Positions 2,984 to 12,837 of a stretch of 12,837 nucleotides of DNA are shown here, one piece after another. The notes under the pieces are model-generated. The model saw nothing but the letters and a program-made list of their open reading frames with translations. It was not told where the DNA came from and did no database searches. Source of the stretch: Mycobacterium sp. (lineage in GTDB: Bacteria > Actinomycetota > Actinomycetes > Mycobacteriales > Mycobacteriaceae); the NCBI GenBank assembly GCA_019246375.1, contig JAFAQO010000233.1:1-12837 (forward strand), given 5' to 3'. Position numbers and translations under genes: made by a program. Positions within the stretch are counted from its first letter, which is position 1. Each line of letters begins with the position of its first letter.

Positions 2984-4294
2984 TCAATAGCTGTGCGCTG
3001 TGCCGTTACCCAAGCAGAGCAATTGCGCGCTGGTCACGGCGTCGTGGTCGAGGATGTTTCGGGTATCAATCACCACCGCGCCGCCGGCTGCGCAGCGGGC
3101 GATCGAGTCCCAGTCCAGCTCACTGAATTCGCGCCACTCGGTGAGCACCAGGATCGCGTCGGCGTCTTTGGCGGCGACGTAGGGATCCCTGGCGGTGGCC
3201 ACCGGCACCCGGCTGCTGTCGATGGCGTCGAGTCGGGGATCGTACGCGGTGACCTGCGCGCCGGCCCGCTGCAGGACCGCGCAGACCGCCGCCGCCGGTG
3301 AGTCCCGGATGTCGCTGGTGCCGGCCTTGAACGTCAGGCCGAGCGCGGCGACCTTCAATTCATCGAGCGGACGGTGCAACACCTGCCGCAACGTGGCGGC
3401 GATGCGCCCGGCCTGGGCGGCGTTGGTCCGCCGGGCCGACTCGACCTCACGCAGCGCGATCCCGCGCACCCGGCCGGTGTACAACAGCGCGGCGGTGTCC
3501 TTCGGCAAACACGAACCACCCCAGCCGGGGCCGGGCGCCAGGAAATACCGCCCGATCCGCTCATCGGCGCCCATACAGCCGGTGACATCGCGAATGTCGG
3601 CGCCGGCTCGGCCGCACAACTCAGCCAGCGAGTTGACGAATGACAGCTTGACCGCCAAAAACGCGTTGCTGGCGTACTTGGCGAGCTCCGCGCTTTCCAG
3701 GCTCATCAGCAAAACCGTGTCGGTATCGTCCGCGTACAGTTCGGCGACGCGGGCAGCGGCGTCACACCCGTCACCGGTCGCACCGACAACGACCCGTTCG
3801 GGGTAGCGGAAGTCGTGTACGGCGTGGCCTTCCCGCAGGAACTCCGGGTTGGCCACCGTGTGAATCCCGCGGGTGCCCAGTGTTTCGCTGAGTCGACGGC
3901 AGGTGCCAACCGGCACAGTCGATTTCACCGCCACCACCGATCCGGGCTGCATCACCTCGGCCAGCTCAGCCACCGCGCGGTCGACCGCTCGCAGATCGGC
4001 GCTGCCGTCGTCGTTGGTCGGCGTTGGAACGCACACGAATACGATGTCGCGGTCGGCCAGGCACCGGTAATCGCACTCGAAGCGCACAGTTTTCCGCTGC
4101 AAGCTGTGGGCCAACAATTCGTCGAGCTCCGGCTCGTCGATGACCGCCCGACCGCAACGCAACTCAGCGACCCGGTGCGGGTCGGTATCAACGCAAATGG
4201 TGTCAATGCCCTTGACGGTCAAGCAGACCGCGCTGGTCAGGCCGACATAGCCGGCGCCGATAACCCCTACCTTCAGGCGCACCTTTCTGTTCAT
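2984..4294 (-). CDS. ugd: UDP-glucose 6-dehydrogenase
   Basis: A 436-residue UDP-glucose/GDP-mannose dehydrogenase family protein. It oxidises UDP-glucose to UDP-glucuronate with two NAD+. The N-terminal Rossmann domain has GAGYVG (13-18). CVPTPTNDDGS (88-98), STVPVGT (125-131) and NPEFLREG (149-156) follow. The active-site segment GWGGSCLPKD (257-266) holds catalytic Cys262 and Asp266, and K206 lies in the AKYASNAF helix. The C-terminal UDP-binding domain has LTFKAGTSDIRDSPA. Nothing is missing. I chose ATG 4294 because it overlaps the upstream GT9 stop as ATGA and starts just before the Rossmann strand; a longer reading to 4441 would run over the GT9. The UXS-like enzyme at the head of the operon would use its product. 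A GDP-mannose or UDP-ManNAc substrate is less likely but cannot be excluded by eye. Confidence 0.9.
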   Translation of the reverse strand: MNRKVRLKVGVIGAGYVGLTSAVCLTVKGIDTICVDTDPHRVAELRCGRAVIDEPELDELLAHSLQRKTVRFECDYRCLADRDIVFVCVPTPTNDDGSADLRAVDRAVAELAEVMQPGSVVAVKSTVPVGTCRRLSETLGTRGIHTVANPEFLREGHAVHDFRYPERVVVGATGDGCDAAARVAELYADDTDTVLLMSLESAELAKYASNAFLAVKLSFVNSLAELCGRAGADIRDVTGCMGADERIGRYFLAPGPGWGGSCLPKDTAALLYTGRVRGIALREVESARRTNAAQAGRIAATLRQVLHRPLDELKVAALGLTFKAGTSDIRDSPAAAVCAVLQRAGAQVTAYDPRLDAIDSSRVPVATARDPYVAAKDADAILVLTEWREFSELDWDSIARCAAGGAVVIDTRNILDHDAVTSAQLLCLGNGTAHSY

Positions 4295-5244
4295 GCGCAC
4301 TCCGCGAGGATCTGTCGAGTCGCATCGAGGACCCGTGCCGGAGTGATCAGCAGCAGCCCGCGGTGCGGGCGGTCCCCATGCGGGTCGCCGCAGACACCCG
4401 CCCATACCGTGATATGCCGGCCGGCGCCCCTCGGTCCCCACCGGCTCGGTGGTGTCGGCCCGAACAACAGCACCGACGGCGTGCCGGTGGCGGTCGCGAT
4501 GTGCCCCACACCGGTGTCGCCGCAGACCACCAGCTGGCAGTCGCTGATCAGCGCCACCATGCCGAGAATGTCCAGTTTTCCTGCCAGGACCGATGATTCG
4601 TCCAAGCCTGCTTGTGCGGCGACGGTGTCGGCAAGAGATTTCTCCGCGGGCGATCCGGTCACCACGACCCGGTGGCCGGTATCTTTGAGTGCTGCGGCGA
4701 CGATCGCGAACCGATCGGCGGGCCAGCGGCGAGACGGGGCGGCCGCCCCCGGGTGGATGACGACGACACCGTCACGGCGCGGGTATCCCGTCGGCCGGTC
4801 GAGCGCCAAGTCCTCAGGGTCGCAGGCAATTCCAGCTGCTCCCAGCAGCGCGCACCAGCGGTCGACCTCGTGAGTTTCGTCGCGCCACGGCGGCCCGCTC
4901 ACCGACGGGTAGGCCGAATTACGATGTGAAATAACGGCTTTGGGCTCGGCTTCGAGCAGATCGGCGATGCTTTCCGGGCCGCGGCCGTGCAGGTTGACGG
5001 CCAGATCCGGCGGTGAGCCGGCCCAACTCAGGTCGCCGAGCCCCGCTGTCGGCAGAACCTCGTCGACGGCGCCGGAGAACAGCGCCAACGGGCCCAGCGG
5101 CTTCGGCGTCGCCAGCACGATGCGGGGCGACGGGTAAGCGCGCCGCAGTCCGCGCAGCGCTGGTATGCCGGTGAGCAGGTCACCCAGACCCAATGCCCGC
5201 AGCACCAGCACCGTGTCGACCGGCGAGACCGCTGTCACGGCCAT
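4291..5244 (-). CDS. GT9 glycosyltransferase (ADP-heptose:LPS heptosyltransferase family), downstream copy
   Basis: A 317-residue GT-B fold enzyme. The N-terminal acceptor half begins VLVLRALGLGDLLTGIPALRG, the family's opening motif, with Asp22 at the position of the proposed catalytic aspartate of WaaC. The donor half has VVIHPGAAAPSRRWP (161-175), VVVTGSPAEK (193-202) and the nucleotide-heptose motif GDTGVGHIATATGTP (242-256), then LFGPTPPSRWGP. There is no signal peptide, so it is cytoplasmic or peripheral. Clustered with the ADP-heptose genes, it most likely transfers heptose; the acceptor is unknown. ATG 5244 is chosen for its GGAGGA at 5251-5256 with six-base spacing, giving a ten-base overlap with the upstream SDR gene. 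GTG 5238 is an in-frame alternative two codons in. Family assignment is firm; sugar and acceptor are inferred. Confidence 0.9.
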   Translation of the reverse strand: MAVTAVSPVDTVLVLRALGLGDLLTGIPALRGLRRAYPSPRIVLATPKPLGPLALFSGAVDEVLPTAGLGDLSWAGSPPDLAVNLHGRGPESIADLLEAEPKAVISHRNSAYPSVSGPPWRDETHEVDRWCALLGAAGIACDPEDLALDRPTGYPRRDGVVVIHPGAAAPSRRWPADRFAIVAAALKDTGHRVVVTGSPAEKSLADTVAAQAGLDESSVLAGKLDILGMVALISDCQLVVCGDTGVGHIATATGTPSVLLFGPTPPSRWGPRGAGRHITVWAGVCGDPHGDRPHRGLLLITPARVLDATRQILAECA

Positions 5245-5927
5245 GACGATTCCTCCGATGAGCACACCACCATTTCGCGAATCTCGTTGCCCGGCGGCTG
5301 GCTCAGCGCGAAAACCACCGTCTCGGCGACGTTGTCGGGGTCGTTGAGCTTGGCGTCCGGCGGCGGCTTGTACTGCTCGTCGCGGCCGTCGAAGAACGGG
5401 GTTTGCATGCCGCCCGGGATCAGCAGCGTCACTCCGACGGTACCGGCCAGCTCGGCGGCCAGCGCGCGGGTGAATCCGACCACCCCGAATTTCGAGGCAC
5501 AGTACGCGGTGGCGTCGCTGACCGCTTTGATGCCCAGGGTCGACGCGCAGGTGACGATGCGGCCCTGCGTCGTCTTCAGGTACGGGAGGGCCGCTCTGAT
5601 CACCGCGGCGGTACCGAGCAGGTTGACGTGCAGCACGTGTTCCCACTCCTTTGCCAAGACCTTGTCCAGCGGGCCGCAGCTGTCGATGCCCGCCGGAGTG
5701 AACACACCGTGCAGCTGCCCGTCGACCGCGTCGGCCAACTCGCGCACCGCATCGTCGACCGTCGAGGTGTCCGCGAGATCCGCCCACGCATAACGGAGGT
5801 TGTCCTGCGGTTTGGCGATGTCGATGACCAGCGGAGTGCCGCCGCGGCGCCGCACCGCCCGCACCGTCGCGGCACCCAGACCCGATGCGCCGCCCGCAAT
5901 CACGATGTTGCCCAATGTCTGCGCCAT
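5235..5927 (-). CDS. Classical short-chain dehydrogenase/reductase, substrate unknown
   Basis: A 230-residue Rossmann-fold oxidoreductase. It has the cofactor loop GGASGLG (12-18), an acidic residue after strand 2 (Asp36, which favours NAD+ over NADP+) and Asn102. The catalytic set is Ser129, Tyr142 and Lys146 (YCASK). The usual NNAG motif is replaced by TPAG (77-80), which is uncommon. The C-terminal part is short, with a PGGMQTPFF turn (171-179). GAGGGG seven bases before the ATG supports the start. It lies 37 bp after hldE and overlaps the next GT9 by ten bases, so it belongs to the operon. It is not HldD, which is an extended SDR of ~310 residues. It may oxidise or reduce a sugar or sugar nucleotide used by this pathway; no substrate can be named. 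Confidence 0.88.
   Translation of the reverse strand: MAQTLGNIVIAGGASGLGAATVRAVRRRGGTPLVIDIAKPQDNLRYAWADLADTSTVDDAVRELADAVDGQLHGVFTPAGIDSCGPLDKVLAKEWEHVLHVNLLGTAAVIRAALPYLKTTQGRIVTCASTLGIKAVSDATAYCASKFGVVGFTRALAAELAGTVGVTLLIPGGMQTPFFDGRDEQYKPPPDAKLNDPDNVAETVVFALSQPPGNEIREMVVCSSEESSWP
5251..5256 (-). promoter_or_regulatory. Shine-Dalgarno sequence deciding the downstream GT9 start
   Basis: GGAGGA on the minus strand, six bases before ATG 5244 and inside the 3' end of the SDR gene. It favours ATG 5244 over the GTG at 5238 that overlaps the SDR stop. Confidence 0.7.
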
Positions 5928-5964: not shown

Positions 5965-7359
5965 TTACCTCGCCCTGGCGGCGATCAGCTTCGACGACGA
6001 GTACCCCGGCACGGTGGGCAGCAGTACCACCTCGCCGCCGTGCCGATGCACCACCTCGGTTTCGGGGAGCTCCACCCCGGTGTAGTCGCCGCCTTTGACC
6101 CAGATGTGCGGCCGTAACCGCTCCAACGCGGCCGCCGGTGACATCTCGGAGAACACCGCGACGCCGTCTACGCAGCCCAGCGCCGCCAATACCCGGGCCC
6201 GGTCATCGGCGGGTACCACCGGCCGTCCACTGCCCTTGATCTGCCGCACCGATTCGTCGGAGTTGATCAGGACCACTAATGCATCGCCCAGGTCGCGGGC
6301 ACGGCGCAGCAGTCGCACGTGGCCGGTATGCAGCAGGTCGAAGCAGCCGCCGGTCGCCACAAGGGTGCCGCCGCGGTGCCGCACCCGATCAGCCAGTGCG
6401 AGCACGGATTCCATACCGGTCACCGCGGCGGCATCGGTGGACAAGTCGATTCCACCGGGTATCGGCATGACGCTGGACACCGCTGCGGCGCCGCCCGCGG
6501 CGACGAACCGGGACGCGGCCGCGACCGCGCTGGTGGCGGCCTGCAACGCGTCAGCGCCCTCGCCCAGCGCGGTCGCGGCGGCTACCGAGAAGCGATCACC
6601 GGCCCCGCAGGCGTCGCTGCGGCCTGGTCCGGCGGTTTCCGGGGCGACGATGTGCTCCGCTCTGTGGTGCCGATCGGCGAACATCGCACCGCGCGCGCCG
6701 AGCGTGACGCACACCGCTCCCGCGTCCCACTCTTGCCGCAGCGCACCGGCCAGCTGCCCGATGTTCGTCGTCCGCGGTGAAAAGTGCTTGGCCTCGGCCT
6801 GATTCGGAGTTACGAGCGCGCAACCACGGATGGGGCGCGCACCGCGCGGGTGCGGATCCCACACCACCGGAATGCACTCGGCCGCACCCTCGAGCAGTGC
6901 GCGCAGTTCGGTGTGTTCGGTCACGCCGCGACCGTAGTCGGCGACGCAGATCGCGGCTGCCTGCTGCAGGGAAGCAACCACCTCGCCGGGCAGCGGGTCG
7001 TTGGCCGCGTAGCCGTCGCCGTGGTCGATGCGCACCACCGATTGGCCACCAGCGCGAATCCGGATCTTGCTCACCGTGCCGCCGCTGAGCGGAACCGAAA
7101 TCACCCTGATTGCCGGGTAATCGGCGGCGAACAACCCGGCCAGGGTGCGACCGGTGGGGTCGTTGACGGCCGCGGTGATGAGCACCACCTCTGGGTGCAC
7201 CCGGGCCGCCAGCACGGCGGCGAGCCCGGCGCCCCCGGGGCGCTGCCAGATGCGATCGGGCTCGACCACCGGGACGGGCGCCTCCGGGGAAAGCCGGTTA
7301 GCCGATCCCTCCACGTCGATGTCGAGCATCGAATCACCTAGTATCACAAGTGGTTTCAT
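5965..7359 (-). CDS. hldE: HldE, bifunctional heptose-7-phosphate kinase / heptose-1-phosphate adenylyltransferase
   Basis: A 464-residue protein with both HldE (RfaE) domains, close to the 477 residues of E. coli HldE. Residues ~1-310 are a PfkB/ribokinase-type kinase: GDSMLDIDVEG (8-18), LSPEAPVPVVEP (23-34), PGGAG (41-45), DYGRGV (141-146) and the catalytic DACGAGDRF (249-257). This half phosphorylates D-glycero-D-manno-heptose 7-phosphate at C1. Residues ~332-464 are the nucleotidyltransferase: GGCFDLLHTGH (337-347, HxGH motif), NSDESVRQIKG (366-376), RPVVP and VKGGDY (421-426). This half adenylylates heptose 1-phosphate. The middle step is done by the GmhB domain encoded upstream. ATG 7359 is chosen by its TGATG overlap with the gmhA stop and its alignment with the family N-terminus. 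The anion-hole Thr/Ser after GAGD is Arg256 here. Confidence 0.95.
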   Translation of the reverse strand: MKPLVILGDSMLDIDVEGSANRLSPEAPVPVVEPDRIWQRPGGAGLAAVLAARVHPEVVLITAAVNDPTGRTLAGLFAADYPAIRVISVPLSGGTVSKIRIRAGGQSVVRIDHGDGYAANDPLPGEVVASLQQAAAICVADYGRGVTEHTELRALLEGAAECIPVVWDPHPRGARPIRGCALVTPNQAEAKHFSPRTTNIGQLAGALRQEWDAGAVCVTLGARGAMFADRHHRAEHIVAPETAGPGRSDACGAGDRFSVAAATALGEGADALQAATSAVAAASRFVAAGGAAAVSSVMPIPGGIDLSTDAAAVTGMESVLALADRVRHRGGTLVATGGCFDLLHTGHVRLLRRARDLGDALVVLINSDESVRQIKGSGRPVVPADDRARVLAALGCVDGVAVFSEMSPAAALERLRPHIWVKGGDYTGVELPETEVVHRHGGEVVLLPTVPGYSSSKLIAARAR

Positions 7360-7931
7360 CAGGCACCGCCCTTCTGCCCGAGCAGCACCTCGTCGAGCGC
7401 CATGCATAAGCAATGCACAAGCAGGAGGTGAATTTCCTGCACGGTTGCGGTTGAACCGGCTTCCACACAGATCGCGTCGTCACTCATCGCCAGCAGGGGG
7501 TTGGGCGCCGGACCGGTCAGCGCCCAGGTGGTCACCCCGATCTCCTGTGCTGCTTTGACCGCGGCGAGCACATTGGGGCTGGTGCCGCTGGTCGACAGCG
7601 CGACCAGCACATCGCCGGGCCGGCCGTGCGCCCGCACTCCGCGAGCGAACATCTCCTCCGGTCCGTAGTCGTTGACGATCGCTGTAGCCGCCGAGGTGTC
7701 AGCGTGTAAAGCAATGGCTGACAACGGCATTCGTTCATCTTTGAAGCGGCCGACCAGCTCGGCGGTCAGATGCTGCGCCTCGGCGGCGCTGCCGCCGTTG
7801 CCGCAGGCCAGCAGCCGCCCCCCGCCGCTGAGCACGTCGGCCAGCTGAGCACCCCAATCAGAGAGCTGAGCGACGGCAGGACGCACCCGTGCCATCGCGC
7901 AAACGAGGTCGGCGAAATGACGTTCGATCAT
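7359..7931 (-). CDS. gmhA: GmhA, sedoheptulose-7-phosphate isomerase
   Basis: A 190-residue SIS-domain enzyme, matching the 192 residues of E. coli GmhA. It isomerises sedoheptulose 7-phosphate to D-glycero-D-manno-heptose 7-phosphate, the first step of heptose synthesis. Diagnostic blocks are CGNGGSAAEAQHLTAELVGR (43-62), HADTSAATAIVNDYG (76-90) and LSTSGTSPN (112-120). His54, Glu58, Gln165 and His173 fall at the spacing of the E. coli zinc ligands (His61, Glu65, Gln172, His180). ATG 7931 overlaps the upstream GT9 stop as ATGA, and the next gene hldE overlaps its stop as TGATG. The protein ends soon after the conserved helix. The longer reading upstream runs antiparallel to nothing useful and lacks homology. 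The identification is firm. Confidence 0.95.
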   Translation of the reverse strand: MIERHFADLVCAMARVRPAVAQLSDWGAQLADVLSGGGRLLACGNGGSAAEAQHLTAELVGRFKDERMPLSAIALHADTSAATAIVNDYGPEEMFARGVRAHGRPGDVLVALSTSGTSPNVLAAVKAAQEIGVTTWALTGPAPNPLLAMSDDAICVEAGSTATVQEIHLLLVHCLCMALDEVLLGQKGGA

Positions 7932-8953
7932 GCTGCACCTCGACTCGCTACCTCGGCGACCGCTGCGACGACGTCCTGAGCGGCGATGCCGTCCAGGCAG
8001 GGATGCCCCGGCACCGGGCAGTTTCGCGCCCGGCTGCCCCGGCATGGGGCGTCCTGGTCGCCCAGCAGGGCCACCGTTGTGCCGTACGGGCTCCACCGCA
8101 CGGCCGGGACCACCGGCGCAAACAGCGACACGATCGGCGCACCGACCGCGGCGGCCAAATGCGCCGGCCCGGTGTTGGGCGCGACCACGGCCCGAGCGCC
8201 GGCGAACACTGAACCGAGTTCGGCCAGCGTGGTCTGTCCGCCCAGATCTGTTGCGACGCCCCCGGCAACCCGTGCGGTGACTTCCCGGTCGGCGTCGGTG
8301 CCGGTGACCACGACGTGGTGACCGGCCGCCGCGAGCGCCCGCACCATCTCCGCGCACTTGCCGACCGATGGCGCCCGGGCCGACACCGCGGCGGCAGGGT
8401 GGAACACCACATAGTCGCGGGCGCTCAGGGCGGTGCGCAGCGACGCGCCGAGCCGCGGGAGGCGGTTGACTCGCAGCCGGCCGTCGTCACCCGGCGGCAG
8501 CCGCCAGCCAGCGGCTTCGGCCAGCGACAAAGCCCGCAGTGGTTCGGGTATGTCGTCGGGCAGGTGGTGGCGCAGGTCCAGCAACTTGCCCGGATAGTCC
8601 TCACAGATCGCGCCGATCCACTGCACACCCGCCATCCGGCAGATCAATGCCAGCGGCAGCGGAGACTGGTGAAACGAGGTGAAGATCAACACCGAATCCG
8701 GCTGCTCGGCGGCGATGGTGTCCACCAGCGACGTCACGCCCTCGGTGGTCAACGGCGGTGCGTCGAAGTCCACCCACGCCGCCGCCCACTCGACCACCCG
8801 GTCGACTCCGGGCAGCATCTCGGCGGCCGCACTGCCCCGGGGGCCGGCCAGAAACACCACGCGGTCGTGGGCCGTGGCCACCGCGCGCACCGCCGGCCCG
8901 GCGACCAGCACGTCGCCGATGCTGTCGAGCCTGGCCACCAACGCGGTCGTCAT
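7928..8953 (-). CDS. GT9 glycosyltransferase (ADP-heptose:LPS heptosyltransferase family), upstream copy
   Basis: A 341-residue GT-B enzyme, clearly distinct from the other GT9 of the operon. The N-terminus reads ALVARLDSIGDVLVAGPAVR, with Asp14 at the catalytic position. The donor half has VVFHPAAAVSARAP (182-195), VVVTGTDADRE (214-224), APNTGPAHLAAAVGAP (258-273) and LFAPVVPAVRWSPYG (277-291). A cysteine-rich tail follows (C304, C312, C319 in CRGSRARNCPVPGHPC), as seen in some WaaF-like members. The likely reaction is transfer of heptose from ADP-heptose; the acceptor is unknown. The ATG overlaps the stop of the second MIRU mini-ORF (TGATG), and its Shine-Dalgarno sequence is in the repeat. 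Its stop overlaps gmhA as ATGA. Confidence 0.9.
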   Translation of the reverse strand: MTTALVARLDSIGDVLVAGPAVRAVATAHDRVVFLAGPRGSAAAEMLPGVDRVVEWAAAWVDFDAPPLTTEGVTSLVDTIAAEQPDSVLIFTSFHQSPLPLALICRMAGVQWIGAICEDYPGKLLDLRHHLPDDIPEPLRALSLAEAAGWRLPPGDDGRLRVNRLPRLGASLRTALSARDYVVFHPAAAVSARAPSVGKCAEMVRALAAAGHHVVVTGTDADREVTARVAGGVATDLGGQTTLAELGSVFAGARAVVAPNTGPAHLAAAVGAPIVSLFAPVVPAVRWSPYGTTVALLGDQDAPCRGSRARNCPVPGHPCLDGIAAQDVVAAVAEVASRGAA

Positions 8954-9006
8954 CAGCGCCGCTCCTCCTCATCGCTTCGCTCTGCATCGTCGCCGGCGGT
9001 CGTCAT
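8953..9006 (-). CDS. MIRU mini-ORF 2 of the glycan-operon array (17 residues)
   Basis: Same peptide as the preceding mini-ORF. Its stop shares one base with the GT9 ATG (TGATG), coupling it to that gene. Confidence 0.35.
   Translation of the reverse strand: MTTAGDDAERSDEEERR
8962..8968 (-). promoter_or_regulatory. Repeat-borne Shine-Dalgarno sequence of the upstream GT9
   Basis: GGAGGAG on the minus strand, eight bases before ATG 8953, inside the MIRU unit. The geometry is identical to that of the frr site. Confidence 0.72.
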
Positions 9007-9059
9007 CAGCGCCGCTCCTCCTCATCGCTTCGCTCTGCATCGTCGCCGGCGGTCGTCAT
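9006..9059 (-). CDS. MIRU mini-ORF 1 of the glycan-operon array (17 residues)
   Basis: ATG in an ATGA overlap with the GT2-GmhB stop; ends TGA overlapping the next ATG by one base. The peptide is MTTA followed by [13 protein letters not shown]. It is probably a translational relay; expression is unproven. Confidence 0.35.
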   Translation of the reverse strand: MTTAGDDAERSDEEERR

Positions 9060-10573
9060 CGAAGCCCCTTGAGCACCAGCGACACCGCATCGTCGAGCGA
9101 ATCCGCCACGTGAGCGTTGGCGTGGGCGTCGGTGATTTCCGCACGTCGAGTCCTCTTGGTGGGCACCAGAATCGCCTTGGCCTGTGCGGCGCGAGCCGCG
9201 GCGACGTCACCGCCGGTATCACCGATCATCACGCAACGGCCGGTGTGCACACCCAGGGCACCGGCCGCCGCAATCACCATGCCAGGGGCGGGTTTTCGGC
9301 ATGCGCATCCATCGTCGTGTACGCAGATCTGCCAGCAGTCGAACGGCCCCAACAACTCCTCTACCCGCGAATTCACCGCGTCCAGTTGCTCTGGGCTGAT
9401 TAGGCCTTTAGCCACCCCGGACTGGTTGGTCACCACGGCCAGCAGCACGCCGTGCTTGCGCAGCCGGCACAGTGCGCGCCGCGCGGTCGGCATCGGGGTC
9501 ACGCCGGCCGGATCGCTGAGATACGGCCCGTCTTTGATCAGGGTATCGTCCCGATCGAGCAGCACAGCCAACGGCGGATCGGCCGTGGCGTTGCGGAAAA
9601 CCCATGTTCCGCAGAGTCTTTGACCGACGGCGACCGGCGGGATGAGGACACTGGACAGCGCCATGGCGGCTATCTCGCGTGGCGTGCGGGGACCGGCGGC
9701 GATGCGGCGCAGCGCGAACTCGACGGTCATGGCCAGCCAGCACAGCACTCCGGCGACTGCCACCCGCCGCAGCCGGGCGCACGCCGCCGCGGCGGCAGCC
9801 AGTGCCGCGCCGGTCGTCAGTAGGTGCAACGGCAGCCGGCCACGGCCCTCACCGACCGCGGCGCGCCACCCGCGGCCGTGCTTGCGGCGCATCAGCGCGT
9901 CGTCGCGGTTGCCTCGCTGGGCACGCACACTGCTCCACGCCGATGACCGCGTCTTGACACCGGCCCCCACCACCGGATGCTCGGTTTCTCGTGATGCCTG
10001 GGTGATTCGACCGCCGGCTCGGGTCAGCCGCAGCGCGATGTCGGCATCCTCGCGATAAGCGCGCGGGAAGCGTTCATCGAACCCCCCGCAGGACACCAGT
10101 GCCGCGCGCCGATATGCCATGTCGGCGGTAATCCACTGCGCGGTCGCGAGTCTCAGGGTGCGCTGTTCGTCGTCGGTGGGCCGCCGTGGCTGCCCGTTTT
10201 CGGTCGGCGCCGGCACCAGGATTCGGGCTTGCGACCCGACCACCGAGTGGTCGGCTTCACTCAGGTCACTGGCTAACTGGTGGCGCCAGTCCGGTCCCGG
10301 CACCACGTCATCGTCGAGGAAACAAATCCAGTCCGCGGCGGTGCTCCGCCATCCGAGATTGCGTGCCGCCGCCGGGCCCCGGCCGCCGCAATGCAGTACG
10401 GTGATCGGCAATTCGGAGGCAGGCAGCGCCAGCGGCTGCCCGGGCGCAGGCCGGTCGTCGACCACAATTACTGCCGCGGGCTCCGGTCCGGCCGCGATGT
10501 TTAGCGCAGCGAGCAGCCGACCCAATGAGGGCCGGCCAATCGTCGGGATCACCACCGCATATGCGGCAGTCAT
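9056..10573 (-). CDS. Fusion of GT2 glycosyltransferase and GmhB-type heptose-bisphosphate phosphatase
   Basis: A 505-residue two-domain protein. Residues ~1-235 are a GT-A family 2 glycosyltransferase: YAVVIPTIGRPSL (5-17), VVDDRP (37-42), the FLDDDV metal-binding motif (85-90), GGFDERF (163-169) and a catalytic-type REDADIALRL (174-183). Residues ~250-320 hold two or three hydrophobic segments, so it is probably membrane-anchored. Residues ~335-475 are a HAD phosphatase of the GmhB/HisB-N type: DRDDT (Asp340, Asp342), TNQSG (382-386), Cys417/His419/Cys423/Cys425 as zinc ligands, CRKP and GDTGGD (451-456). It should remove the C7 phosphate from heptose 1,7-bisphosphate between the two HldE steps. 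The zinc loop is shorter than in E. coli GmhB. ATG 10573 overlaps the upstream stop as ATGA. The GT2 donor and acceptor are unknown. Confidence 0.9.
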   Translation of the reverse strand: MTAAYAVVIPTIGRPSLGRLLAALNIAAGPEPAAVIVVDDRPAPGQPLALPASELPITVLHCGGRGPAAARNLGWRSTAADWICFLDDDVVPGPDWRHQLASDLSEADHSVVGSQARILVPAPTENGQPRRPTDDEQRTLRLATAQWITADMAYRRAALVSCGGFDERFPRAYREDADIALRLTRAGGRITQASRETEHPVVGAGVKTRSSAWSSVRAQRGNRDDALMRRKHGRGWRAAVGEGRGRLPLHLLTTGAALAAAAAACARLRRVAVAGVLCWLAMTVEFALRRIAAGPRTPREIAAMALSSVLIPPVAVGQRLCGTWVFRNATADPPLAVLLDRDDTLIKDGPYLSDPAGVTPMPTARRALCRLRKHGVLLAVVTNQSGVAKGLISPEQLDAVNSRVEELLGPFDCWQICVHDDGCACRKPAPGMVIAAAGALGVHTGRCVMIGDTGGDVAAARAAQAKAILVPTKRTRRAEITDAHANAHVADSLDDAVSLVLKGLR

Positions 10574-12210
10574 TGGCCGTGCCGCCGAATCATGAAGGGG
10601 CCCAGTGCCAATACGTCGAGTGGCGCGCTGCCGAAGCACTCCAGCGCGTCTCCCGGGCTGTCGACCATCGGTCGCCCGGCGGTGTTGAAGCTGGTGTTGA
10701 CTACCACAGGCACACCGGTCCGGTCAGCGAACGTGGCGATCATGCGATGCAACAGCGGCCTGTCGGTATCCACGGTTTGGATACGCGCGGTGCCGTCGAC
10801 GTGGGTCACCGCGGGAATGCGGGACCGCCAGTCGTCGGCCACATCGTGAACGAACAGCATGTACGGGCTGGGTAGCGGTCCGCGCGAAAAAAGTTGGTCG
10901 GCCTGCTCGGCCAGGACCATCGGCGCCACCGGGCGGAACTGCTCGCGGCCTTTGACCCGGTTGAGCCGCTCCAGGTTGCCCGGATCGCGTGGATCGGCCA
11001 GCAGCGACCGGTTGCCCAGCGCTCGGGGACCGAATTCCGAACGCCCCTGGAACCAACCGACCAGCAGATTGCCGGCCAGCGCGTCGGCCACCGCGGTCGC
11101 GATATCGTCGGGTCGGTCATAGCGGATGTCGGCCTCGTCCAGCACGGCGGCGATCTGGTCGTCGGACCAGCCCCGGCCGAGCGACGCCGACGGCATCGGG
11201 GCGATTGGCTCGCGGTGCTCGGCGGCCAGCGCGAGCGCCGCCCCGAGCGCGGTGCCGGCGTCTCCGGACGCCGGCTGCACCCAAACGTGGCCGAATCCGC
11301 CATCGGCGAACAATCGGGTGTTGGCTACGCAGTTCAGCGCTACCCCGCCGGCCAGGCACAGCGTGTTGGCGCTACTGCGGGTCCGCAGCCAGCAGACCAG
11401 TTGGAGCAGCACCTCCTCGAGCACCCGTTGCACACTGCAGGCCAGATCGGCGTGCGCGGGATCCAGTTGGGTTTCGCCCGGATCGCGGGGTGCGGTGAAC
11501 TCTGACCAGTCGACCGGTTCGGTGCGGAATGTGCCGTCGCCGCACGAATACACCAACTCGCGCAGGCGGTCCGCGTAGGCGGGCGTGCCGTAGGAGGCCA
11601 TCGCCATCACCTTGTATTCGTCGCTGGACCGCTTGAATCCCAAGTACTCGGTCAGGCTTTCGTACAGCAGACCAAGCGAATGCGGAAGTTGTTGAACGGC
11701 AAGGATATCGAGCTTGCTCTCGCGATATTCCCCGGCCAGCATGGAGGTCGACTCCCCGCGGCCGTCGACCACCAACACCGCGCTGTCGGGTTGCGGTGAA
11801 GCCAATGACGTTGAAGCGGCGTGCGCGACGTGGTGGCGAACATGTCGGACGATGCCCGGGTCGAGGCCGGGCAACGCCGCGGCCAGGAACTGCGGCGCGC
11901 GGCGAGCATAGAGCGTGCGCAAATGTTCCCAGTCCCGGTCCTGACCGTCGAGCACTCCGCCGGTCACCTCGGCCAGCGCCGGATCATAGGAGTAGCCGAC
12001 CGCATCGAGGTCGGCGGCGGTGATTCCGCCCTGCTGTAGACACCATCGAGCAGCCGCCGTGGGCATCTCCCAGGTGGAGAACGCCACTGCCTGCTTACCG
12101 TGCTTGCGCCGCGAGAACCGTTCCTCTTCGGCGGCGGCAACGACCTGTCCGTCGACGACGAGCGCGGCCGCCGGGTCGTGGAAAACCGCATTGATGCCGA
12201 GAATCCGCAC
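10570..12210 (-). CDS. NodU/CmcH-family carbamoyltransferase
   Basis: A 546-residue protein. It should transfer a carbamoyl group from carbamoyl phosphate, via carbamoyl-adenylate, to a sugar hydroxyl. The N-terminal Kae1-like half has FHDPAAALVVDG (10-21), EEERFSRRKH (28-37), RHHVAHAAS (125-133, metal-binding histidines), VVDGRGE (147-153), CLAGGVALNCVAN (285-297) and QPASGDAGTALG (312-323). The C-terminal carbamoyltransferase domain has GWFQGRSEFGPRALGNRS (385-402), KGREQFRPVAP (420-430), THVDGTARIQ and VVVNTSFNTAGRPMV (502-516). All expected blocks are present. The start is GTG 12210, with AGGGA five bases upstream; it gives the family's standard first residues (RILGIN). No in-frame start fits between it and the epimerase stop. 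A heptose or xylose of the same glycan is the natural target, by inference. Confidence 0.92.
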   Translation of the reverse strand: MRILGINAVFHDPAAALVVDGQVVAAAEEERFSRRKHGKQAVAFSTWEMPTAAARWCLQQGGITAADLDAVGYSYDPALAEVTGGVLDGQDRDWEHLRTLYARRAPQFLAAALPGLDPGIVRHVRHHVAHAASTSLASPQPDSAVLVVDGRGESTSMLAGEYRESKLDILAVQQLPHSLGLLYESLTEYLGFKRSSDEYKVMAMASYGTPAYADRLRELVYSCGDGTFRTEPVDWSEFTAPRDPGETQLDPAHADLACSVQRVLEEVLLQLVCWLRTRSSANTLCLAGGVALNCVANTRLFADGGFGHVWVQPASGDAGTALGAALALAAEHREPIAPMPSASLGRGWSDDQIAAVLDEADIRYDRPDDIATAVADALAGNLLVGWFQGRSEFGPRALGNRSLLADPRDPGNLERLNRVKGREQFRPVAPMVLAEQADQLFSRGPLPSPYMLFVHDVADDWRSRIPAVTHVDGTARIQTVDTDRPLLHRMIATFADRTGVPVVVNTSFNTAGRPMVDSPGDALECFGSAPLDVLALGPFMIRRHGQ

Positions 12211-12286: not shown

Positions 12287-12837
12287 CTAAACGGTGACCC
12301 GAGGCGGCTCGGCGTGGGTGCGGAACCAGTCGACGGTCTGGGCCAGACCGTCTCCGGCGCGGACCTTCGGCTCCCAGCCCAGTTGTTGGCGCGCACTGCC
12401 GATATCCGGACAACGGCGTTGCGGATCGTCCTGGACAGCGGGAATGTAGTGAATCGGCGAAGTGCTGCCGGCGCTATCACGGATCATCTCCGCAACGCGC
12501 AGCACAGTCAGCTCGGTGGGATTGCCGATGTTGACCGGACCGGTGATGTCGCTGACCGCCAACGCCAGCAGCGCTGCCACCGTGTCGTCGACATGGCACA
12601 GCGATCGCGTCTGGTGTCCGCTGCCCGCAACTGTGATCGGCTCATTGCATAAGGCCTGGCGGCAGAACGTCGGCACCATCCGGCCGTCGTCGGCGCGCAT
12701 CCGCGGGCCGTAGGTGTTGAAAATCCGTGCTACCGCCACATCCGCCCGCATTGCCCGGTGATGAGCGAAAACCAACGCTTCGGCGAACCGCTTCGCCTCG
12801 TCGTAGACACTGCGCGGTCCGATCGGATTGACGTTGC
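12287..12837 (-). CDS. UDP-glucuronate decarboxylase (UXS)-like NAD-dependent epimerase/dehydratase, C-terminal part
   Basis: The frame is open to the right edge, so 182 complete C-terminal codons are visible and the N-terminal Rossmann half is outside. The visible part begins NVNPIGPRSVYDEAKRFAEA, with the catalytic Tyr-x3-Lys (Tyr codon 12803-12805, Lys codon 12791-12793). ARIFNTYGPRMRADDGRMVP, GSGHQTRSLCHVDD, GPVNIGNPTELTVL, QDDPQRRCPDI and LGWEPKV follow. This order and wording match UDP-xylose synthase (UXS) more closely than dTDP-glucose dehydratase or HldD. UXS decarboxylates UDP-glucuronate to UDP-xylose, and UDP-glucose dehydrogenase in the same operon would make its substrate. A 4-epimerase activity (UDP-galacturonate) is the main alternative. 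Confirmation needs the missing N-terminus. Confidence 0.88.
   Translation of the reverse strand, partial: NVNPIGPRSVYDEAKRFAEALVFAHHRAMRADVAVARIFNTYGPRMRADDGRMVPTFCRQALCNEPITVAGSGHQTRSLCHVDDTVAALLALAVSDITGPVNIGNPTELTVLRVAEMIRDSAGSTSPIHYIPAVQDDPQRRCPDIGSARQQLGWEPKVRAGDGLAQTVDWFRTHAEPPRVTV

Follow-up and report, generated by a model that had tools for sequence, protein, structure and literature searches.

Heptose is usually associated with Gram-negative bacteria. The described system that is closest to the locus studied here comes from Streptomyces coelicolor, where cwgA-L (SCO6179-6190) form the cwg operon. According to the accessible text of the published accounts, this 12-gene operon has a predicted cell-wall glycan as its product; vancomycin induces it, the sigma factor that responds to cell-envelope stress controls it directly, and its sigma-E promoter lies 147 bp ahead of the start codon (PMC6767563). 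Its cwgH and cwgI genes are annotated as phosphoheptose isomerase and bifunctional synthase/transferase, respectively (PMC5839063). We analyzed a window, by which we mean a whole stretch of 12,837 nucleotides of Mycobacterium sp. DNA (assembly GCA_019246375.1, contig JAFAQO010000233.1), that carries a cluster of predicted ADP-heptose genes. Gene content and protein similarity indicate that this mycobacterial cluster and the cwg operon of S. coelicolor are homologous, and we consider it probable that it is a cwg-type operon for a carbamoylated envelope glycan containing heptose and xylose. An earlier note on this DNA had recognized a complete ADP-heptose pathway in a mycobacterial operon. Its interpretation is partly supported; it overlooked the cwg type, the predicted UDP-xylose synthesis, the carbamoylation and up to six glycosyltransferases, some of which are encoded on another contig.

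The published cwg promoter was searched in 295 genomes of one genus, and six of them had a site with at most two mismatches. Only G752 matched all 29 bases exactly, and there the decarboxylase frame has a single start codon, which follows the site at the published distance of 147 bp. From this promoter match we infer that the searched genus is Streptomyces and that G752 is S. coelicolor or a near relative. Four of the six genomes, G752 included, contained the whole gene set; in a fifth, a 4.3-kb stretch covers the first genes, while G649 had just matches resembling glycosyltransferase family 2 (GT2)/GmhB and GT4. The G752 locus (L203) consists of 12 genes in the order decarboxylase, carbamoyltransferase, GT2, GmhB, GT9a, GT4, GT4, GmhA, HldE, GT9b, GT2 and GT2. 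Its proteins are 43-65% identical to the mycobacterial ones. Six of the queries in this comparison were window proteins; those for the decarboxylase, GT4 and GT2 were supplied by three other mycobacterial loci, L055, L042 and L058. Eight annotations in the accessible part of the cwg literature (cwgB, C, D, E, G, H, I and J) fit these slots, specifically for cwgH and cwgI and generically for those printed as transferases. The printed dehydratase cwgD is, in our reading, a HisB-like label for the GmhB slot.

In the window the cluster is a tight run of nine genes on the minus strand, from 12835 to 2984. It starts with a predicted UDP-glucuronate decarboxylase (UDP-xylose synthase; 12287-12835; cwgA counterpart), of which the contig end leaves the C-terminal part, followed by a NodU-family O-carbamoyltransferase (10570-12210; cwgB), whose GTG start was set at 12210 by comparison, and by a fusion of a GT2 with a heptose 1,7-bisphosphate 7-phosphatase (GmhB) domain (9056-10573; cwgC and cwgD). 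Then come the heptosyltransferase-family glycosyltransferase GT9a (7928-8953; cwgE), the sedoheptulose 7-phosphate isomerase GmhA (7359-7931; cwgH), the heptose 7-phosphate kinase/heptose 1-phosphate nucleotidyltransferase HldE (5965-7359; cwgI), a classical short-chain dehydrogenase (SDR; 5235-5927), which has no counterpart in L203, a second heptosyltransferase-family protein, GT9b (4291-5244; cwgJ), and finally a UDP-glucose 6-dehydrogenase (UGD; 2984-4294). Five of the eight gene junctions overlap by 1-10 bases; the gaps measure 76 bases before the carbamoyltransferase gene, about 100 before GT9a and 37 before the SDR gene. Compared with locus L058, the nine genes have dN/dS values of 0.105-0.203 (for the decarboxylase over its partial frame only), which indicates purifying selection; the neighbors pyrH, frr and cdsA, which follow 3' of the UGD gene in this order, have 0.075-0.220. 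At the end of the window, 45 bases that fall within the decarboxylase gene recur exactly at the end of C59, another contig of the same genome; C59 carries the N-terminal part of that gene together with two GT4 genes and one GT2 gene, the GT2 on the other strand. Since C59 supplies these three, the cluster of this genome comprises twelve genes. The two GT4 and the GT2 are found near the cluster in 34, 34 and 33 of the 36 other mycobacterial loci, respectively; in G069 and G072, where no GT4 pair is close by, the pair lies approximately 6-7 kb away.

The earlier note's central claim, that GmhA, both HldE domains and a GmhB domain are present with their catalytic residues, was confirmed: isomerase, kinase, nucleotidyltransferase and 7-phosphatase are all encoded with their motif residues, and the motifs are conserved. 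GmhA matched Pfam SIS_2 (7.2e-26) and TIGR00441 (3.8e-47) and, in the PDB, phosphoheptose isomerases (top match 4.7e-45); its four tested His/Gln positions are invariant across the 120-122 loci that cover them. HldE matched PRK11316 (7.9e-83), TIGR02199 (1.5e-49) and TIGR02198 (1.9e-39), contains the motifs GAGD, GCFDLLHTGH and KGGDY, and in the PDB was most similar to 5x9q (2.7e-26; entry name putative cytidylyltransferase), which we take to be HldC, and to the heptose 7-phosphate kinase 4e84 (1e-16); an alignment of HldE proteins took in 15 of the 37 cluster HldEs. The GmhB domain, the C-terminal part of the fusion, matched PRK08942 (9.8e-30); its top PDB matches were two unnamed HAD proteins (7.3e-15 and 1.1e-14), followed by the GmhB structures 4pnh, 3l8e and 2gmw (6.1e-13 to 1.2e-11). 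The DxD and Cys-His-Cys-Cys positions of the fusion are invariant in the 88 or 89 covering loci; GT2 and GmhB are fused in all 35 genus loci tested and are separate genes in L203. By these family and motif matches, the enzyme set fits a route from sedoheptulose 7-phosphate to ADP-D-glycero-heptose, as the earlier note had read it, although every catalytic step is predicted.

HldE of this clade might instead use another nucleotide and make CDP-, UDP- or GDP-heptose. The Arg in a (F/L)XXGRSTT motif was linked to nucleoside triphosphate (NTP) promiscuity in the accessible text of Tang et al. (PMC11573728), while a commentary, likewise accessible in part, states that this Arg is not strictly required (PMC11461863). 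The Streptomyces-type, Nonomuraea and Actinomadura orthologues have the Arg at the equivalent of HldE residue 453 (window 6001-6003), but this residue is Tyr in the window and in 35/35 genus loci tested. Moreover, the model that comes closest to the nucleotidyltransferase domain is the one for the adenylyltransferase. The Tyr where NTP-promiscuous enzymes have Arg therefore favors ADP as the predicted nucleotide in the mycobacteria, and we regard a switch to another one as improbable.

In line with the earlier note, the epimerase HldD was not found: the source genome, which is approximately 81% complete, contains none above cut-off and only a weak TIGR02197 match (5.6e-16). Some TIGR02197 match occurs in all 148 Mycobacterium genomes sampled, and a single one, G034, has a protein above cut-off. 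It was considered whether the SDR could replace HldD, so that the donor would be the L-glycero epimer, since its gene lies directly after HldE and was found in 36/36 genus loci, and its YxxxK residues are invariant across 109 covering loci. However, the SDR is a classical type of 230 amino acids and its model resembles classical alcohol, aldose and ketoacyl dehydrogenases, whereas HldD is an extended SDR, and the L203 operon does without an SDR. HldD is absent from the matches listed for the SDR model, an absence that carries no evidential weight. It seems quite unlikely that the SDR fills this role, and ADP-D,D-heptose would be made without epimerization, with D,D-heptose as the donor sugar. 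A precedent is found in the PDB listing, where the heptosyltransferase TibC (4rb4) is in complex with ADP-D-beta-D-heptose; TibC presumably works without HldD.

The earlier note also reported two adjoining GT9 genes, and both are there, the first inside the range that the note covered and the second just beyond it. GT9a matched Pfam Glyco_transf_9 with 6e-20 and GT9b with 7.8e-31; in the PDB, GT9b matched GT9 protein 3tov (8.1e-18) and E. coli heptosyltransferase II (1psw, 3.3e-16). Both were assigned to GT9 by fold, which was modelled for GT9a alone, and by the N-terminal Asp that is catalytic in WaaC. One of the GT4 proteins encoded next to the cluster has MshA as its nearest family (TIGR03449, 4.4e-80, 269.5 bits against a cut-off of 462.5), and both GT2s are near MftF.

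The decarboxylase matched Pfam Epimerase (4.5e-20), and its orthologue in L058 (3101-4063) matched human UDP-glucuronate decarboxylase 4gll with 1.6e-101, while the next family scored 1.7e-36. UGD is above the cut-off of TIGR03026 (7.7e-119) and matched a UDP-glucose dehydrogenase in the PDB (1.6e-85). Because of these two matches, UDP-xylose synthesis is predicted. The carbamoyltransferase matched Pfam Carbam_trans_C (3.9e-65) and, in the PDB, decarbamoylnovobiocin carbamoyltransferase (9e-92), as well as TobZ and GdmN.

Several observations weigh against the assignment of the cluster to a heptose-containing envelope glycan. Firstly, HldE (167.5 of 181.5 bits for TIGR02199, 278.6 of 521 for PRK11316), GmhA (160.2 of 209.45 for TIGR00441) and the GmhB domain (103.4 of 178 for PRK08942) score below the NCBI equivalog cut-offs, as do the GT9 proteins for theirs, so the functional assignment rests on motifs and gene company. 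Secondly, residue 260 of GT9a (window 8174-8176) is Asn in 113/113 covered loci, whereas GT9b has Asp at this position in 114/117 loci and WaaC also has Asp, and the tested Arg of GT9b varies (91/117). Together this means that the donors of GT9a and GT9b may differ. Thirdly, the part of the recurring neighbor families that was inspected includes none for a flippase, polymerase, ligase or anchoring function; it comprises sigma factor, STAS, HATPase, topoisomerase IB, biotin carboxylase, thiamine pyrophosphate enzyme, UDG, hemerythrin, NTP transferase and pyruvyl transferase-like families; family F20 has no Pfam match. Fourthly, the accessible literature yielded no report of heptose for carrier species. 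Lastly, the Streptomyces form of the sigma-E promoter was found in 0/24 mycobacterial upstream regions. The looser form GGAAC...CGT(C/T) occurred in 2/24, where shuffled sequences gave a mean of 0.325; sigma-E-like control is thus not a conserved feature of the mycobacterial cluster in these 24 regions.

That no export or anchoring genes were seen among the inspected recurring neighbors could imply that the product is not a wall glycan but a soluble or secreted small glycoconjugate, such as a cofactor, protectant or natural product. This is the main rival explanation. It would agree with the similarity of one GT4 to MshA and of the GT2s to MftF, families that we take to be named for soluble cofactors, and with the fact that the structurally known carbamoyltransferases matching the cluster enzyme are mostly natural-product enzymes. 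However, the response of the Streptomyces operon to vancomycin and to the envelope stress sigma factor speaks against it, the gene set is widespread, and the inspected neighbors have no relation to such a product (for example sigma factor, topoisomerase and biotin carboxylase genes) and are not polyketide synthase, nonribosomal peptide synthetase or resistance genes. Therefore we consider a soluble product unlikely. In the proposed mechanism, UGD and UDP-glucuronate decarboxylase would convert UDP-glucose to UDP-xylose. A short glycan would then be built from ADP-heptose, UDP-xylose and other donors by as many as six glycosyltransferases, namely both GT9 proteins, the fused GT2, and the two GT4 and one GT2 from the neighboring contig. 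The order of the sugars, like the carbamoylation of heptose, is something that we infer; the NodU-type enzyme would carbamoylate the glycan, possibly on heptose. The glycan most likely serves the cell envelope, as with the Streptomyces operon. Its location is the weakest step of the mechanism, because the envelope role is taken from the regulation in Streptomyces.

The earlier note had called an HldE route unexpected in this genus and had suggested a survey of Mycobacterium for HldE. In the 148 genomes, which were sampled out of a larger group, TIGR02199 had matches in 38 at 40 places, with 26 genomes passing the cut-off, and the cluster was present in 37, the window's own genome included, so the note's claim that the route is unexpected is not borne out. 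Three matches lay outside a cluster: a weak second match in G011 and two HldEs of a different type. One of these is the second HldE of G060 (L021); the other, in G034 (L022/L141), groups with E. coli HldE and adjoins a true HldD (356 bits). Gene set and order were kept at the 36 further loci of the genus and all nine window genes were found in 32 of them; the misses are the decarboxylase and UGD genes in L034, UGD in L040 and L049, and L054, which is masked by N. A second GmhA model, which we take to be of the M. tuberculosis Rv0113 type, was passed at its strict cut-off in 1/148 genomes, and 98/148 had some match to it, the GmhA of the cluster included. As a separate observation, 17 genomes of the genus encode an extra GmhA-like protein away from the cwg cluster (145-167 bits against the Rv0113-type model), which hints at yet another heptose locus. 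We found no description of the HldE route in Mycobacterium in a literature search that left subscription papers largely outside. The note's proposal of an undescribed heptose-containing glycan holds as the natural reading: the cwg operon is already in print, yet the accessible part of its accounts gives only a predicted product.

In the wider class sample, TIGR02199 matched 210/394 genomes, 79 of them above cut-off; these are HldE matches, for which the cluster was checked in part. Loci with species or genus names were taken from the best 80 of 592 stretches and therefore give a minimum for the distribution beyond Mycobacterium. Among the carriers with names are M. persicum and M. yunnanensis as well as members of Nocardia, Amycolatopsis, Prauserella, Nonomuraea, Microbispora, Streptosporangium and Actinomadura. 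Of the 80 named loci, 61 combine the carbamoyltransferase, GT9a, GmhA and HldE; among the 19 that do not, 10 are stretches shorter than 15 kb. Judged by its sequence relatives, the cluster is no lone oddity but represents, on the mycobacterial side, a glycan operon that is widespread in actinobacteria.

Since the names and folds match those of enzymes for the lipopolysaccharide (LPS) core, the genes could be seen as a recent transfer from Gram-negative bacteria. The HldE tree, with 113 rows, was made with a quick method and contains the window, eight of the other 36 genus-sample loci, the named loci and E. coli as the single proteobacterial row; branch support was given by the SH-like approximate likelihood ratio test (SH-aLRT) only. 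All 26 rows from mycobacterial clusters group in a single clade (SH-aLRT 100), which is nested in a larger one of 102 rows (SH-aLRT 100). The larger clade is actinobacterial except for one Chloroflexi metagenome-assembled genome (MAG); it excludes E. coli HldE as well as the non-cluster HldEs of G060 and G034. A recent Gram-negative transfer is unsupported by this tree and we consider it very improbable. The tree suggests instead that the operon is old within the actinobacteria and patchily distributed among them.

The genomic setting varies. Adjacency to pyrH is shared with the window by only one of the 36 other loci, L058. Many genus loci (e.g. L067, L044, L047, L048) have genes for a sigma factor, a STAS protein, an HATPase-like protein, topoisomerase IB and biotin carboxylase nearby, a set that resembles the sigF-accA3 region; gene calling in these flanks was crude and some antisense frames were called. 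In 14 loci, of which 13 belong to Pseudonocardiaceae and one to a Streptosporangiaceae MAG, the cluster has a polysaccharide pyruvyl transferase-like gene (e.g. L088, 5759-6643) as a neighbor. Within the operon of the window, a 53-bp tandem repeat of 2.2 copies (8943-9060) fills the gap before GT9a, and a further array lies between frr and pyrH (1833-1996). By their appearance we take these repeats to be mycobacterial interspersed repetitive units. The core pattern, with at most one mismatch, has 59 sites in the source genome, 22 in G060, 2 in G069 and 0 in G072. An Rfam scan of the window gave no match at gathering scores and a search for sigma-70-like promoters gave no site; 8 terminator-like sites were found, compared with 5.5 in shuffled sequences.

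For a vancomycin-induced operon of Streptomyces that had been an orphan, the comparison predicts a concrete chemistry of ADP-heptose, UDP-xylose and carbamoyl groups, and it places this operon type in a quarter of the sampled mycobacteria, with M. persicum among the named carriers. The nature of the cwg glycan thereby becomes testable. ADP-heptose is a known agonist of the vertebrate sensor ALPK1, which raises the question whether carrier mycobacteria hold it; among the matches listed in a search for ALPK1 and mycobacteria (titles and abstract starts), none was on mycobacterial ADP-heptose. As a tentative proposal, which we would not yet favor over its negation, about a quarter of Mycobacterium species may make ADP-D,D-heptose, use it for a carbamoylated heptose-xylose envelope glycan and so contain the ALPK1 ligand, with the Streptomyces cwg glycan belonging to the same class. 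If true, this shared chemical class would assign a product to the cwg operon.

Compared with known systems, the cluster has the isomerase, the fused kinase/nucleotidyltransferase, the phosphatase and the GT9 folds in common with the ADP-heptose pathway of Gram-negative LPS (GmhA, HldE, GmhB, HldD, WaaC/WaaF). It differs in that lipid A and 3-deoxy-D-manno-octulosonic acid (Kdo) genes are absent and no HldD was found, that GmhB is fused to a GT2, and that genes for UDP-xylose and carbamoylation are part of the operon. In Pseudomonas LPS, a carbamoyltransferase likewise occurs alongside heptosyltransferases: the accessible descriptions place a carbamoyl group on heptose O-7 in the inner core, through the putative carbamoyltransferase WapO. 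That system belongs to outer-membrane LPS, and it is by description, not by sequence, that WapO is likened to the cluster enzyme. The GDP-heptose set of M. tuberculosis (Rv0113 GmhA, HddA, GmhB, HddC) also starts from sedoheptulose 7-phosphate, according to the accessible text (PMC7705670), but it is an alpha-anomer GDP route, and the GmhA of the window scores higher with a different GmhA model. Septacidin and hygromycin B also involve actinobacterial ADP-heptose, but their genes are described, in the sources as far as accessible, as antibiotic clusters. Closest is the cwg operon, which shares the UDP-glucuronate decarboxylase-like protein, the carbamoyltransferase, GT2, GmhB, GT9, two GT4, GmhA, HldE, the second GT9 and a further GT2. 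The mycobacterial form shows no Streptomyces-like sigma-E promoter, fuses GT2 and GmhB, gains the SDR and UGD genes, and has its GT4 pair in front of the cluster together with an oppositely oriented GT2, a single gene instead of the two GT2 genes that end the L203 operon.

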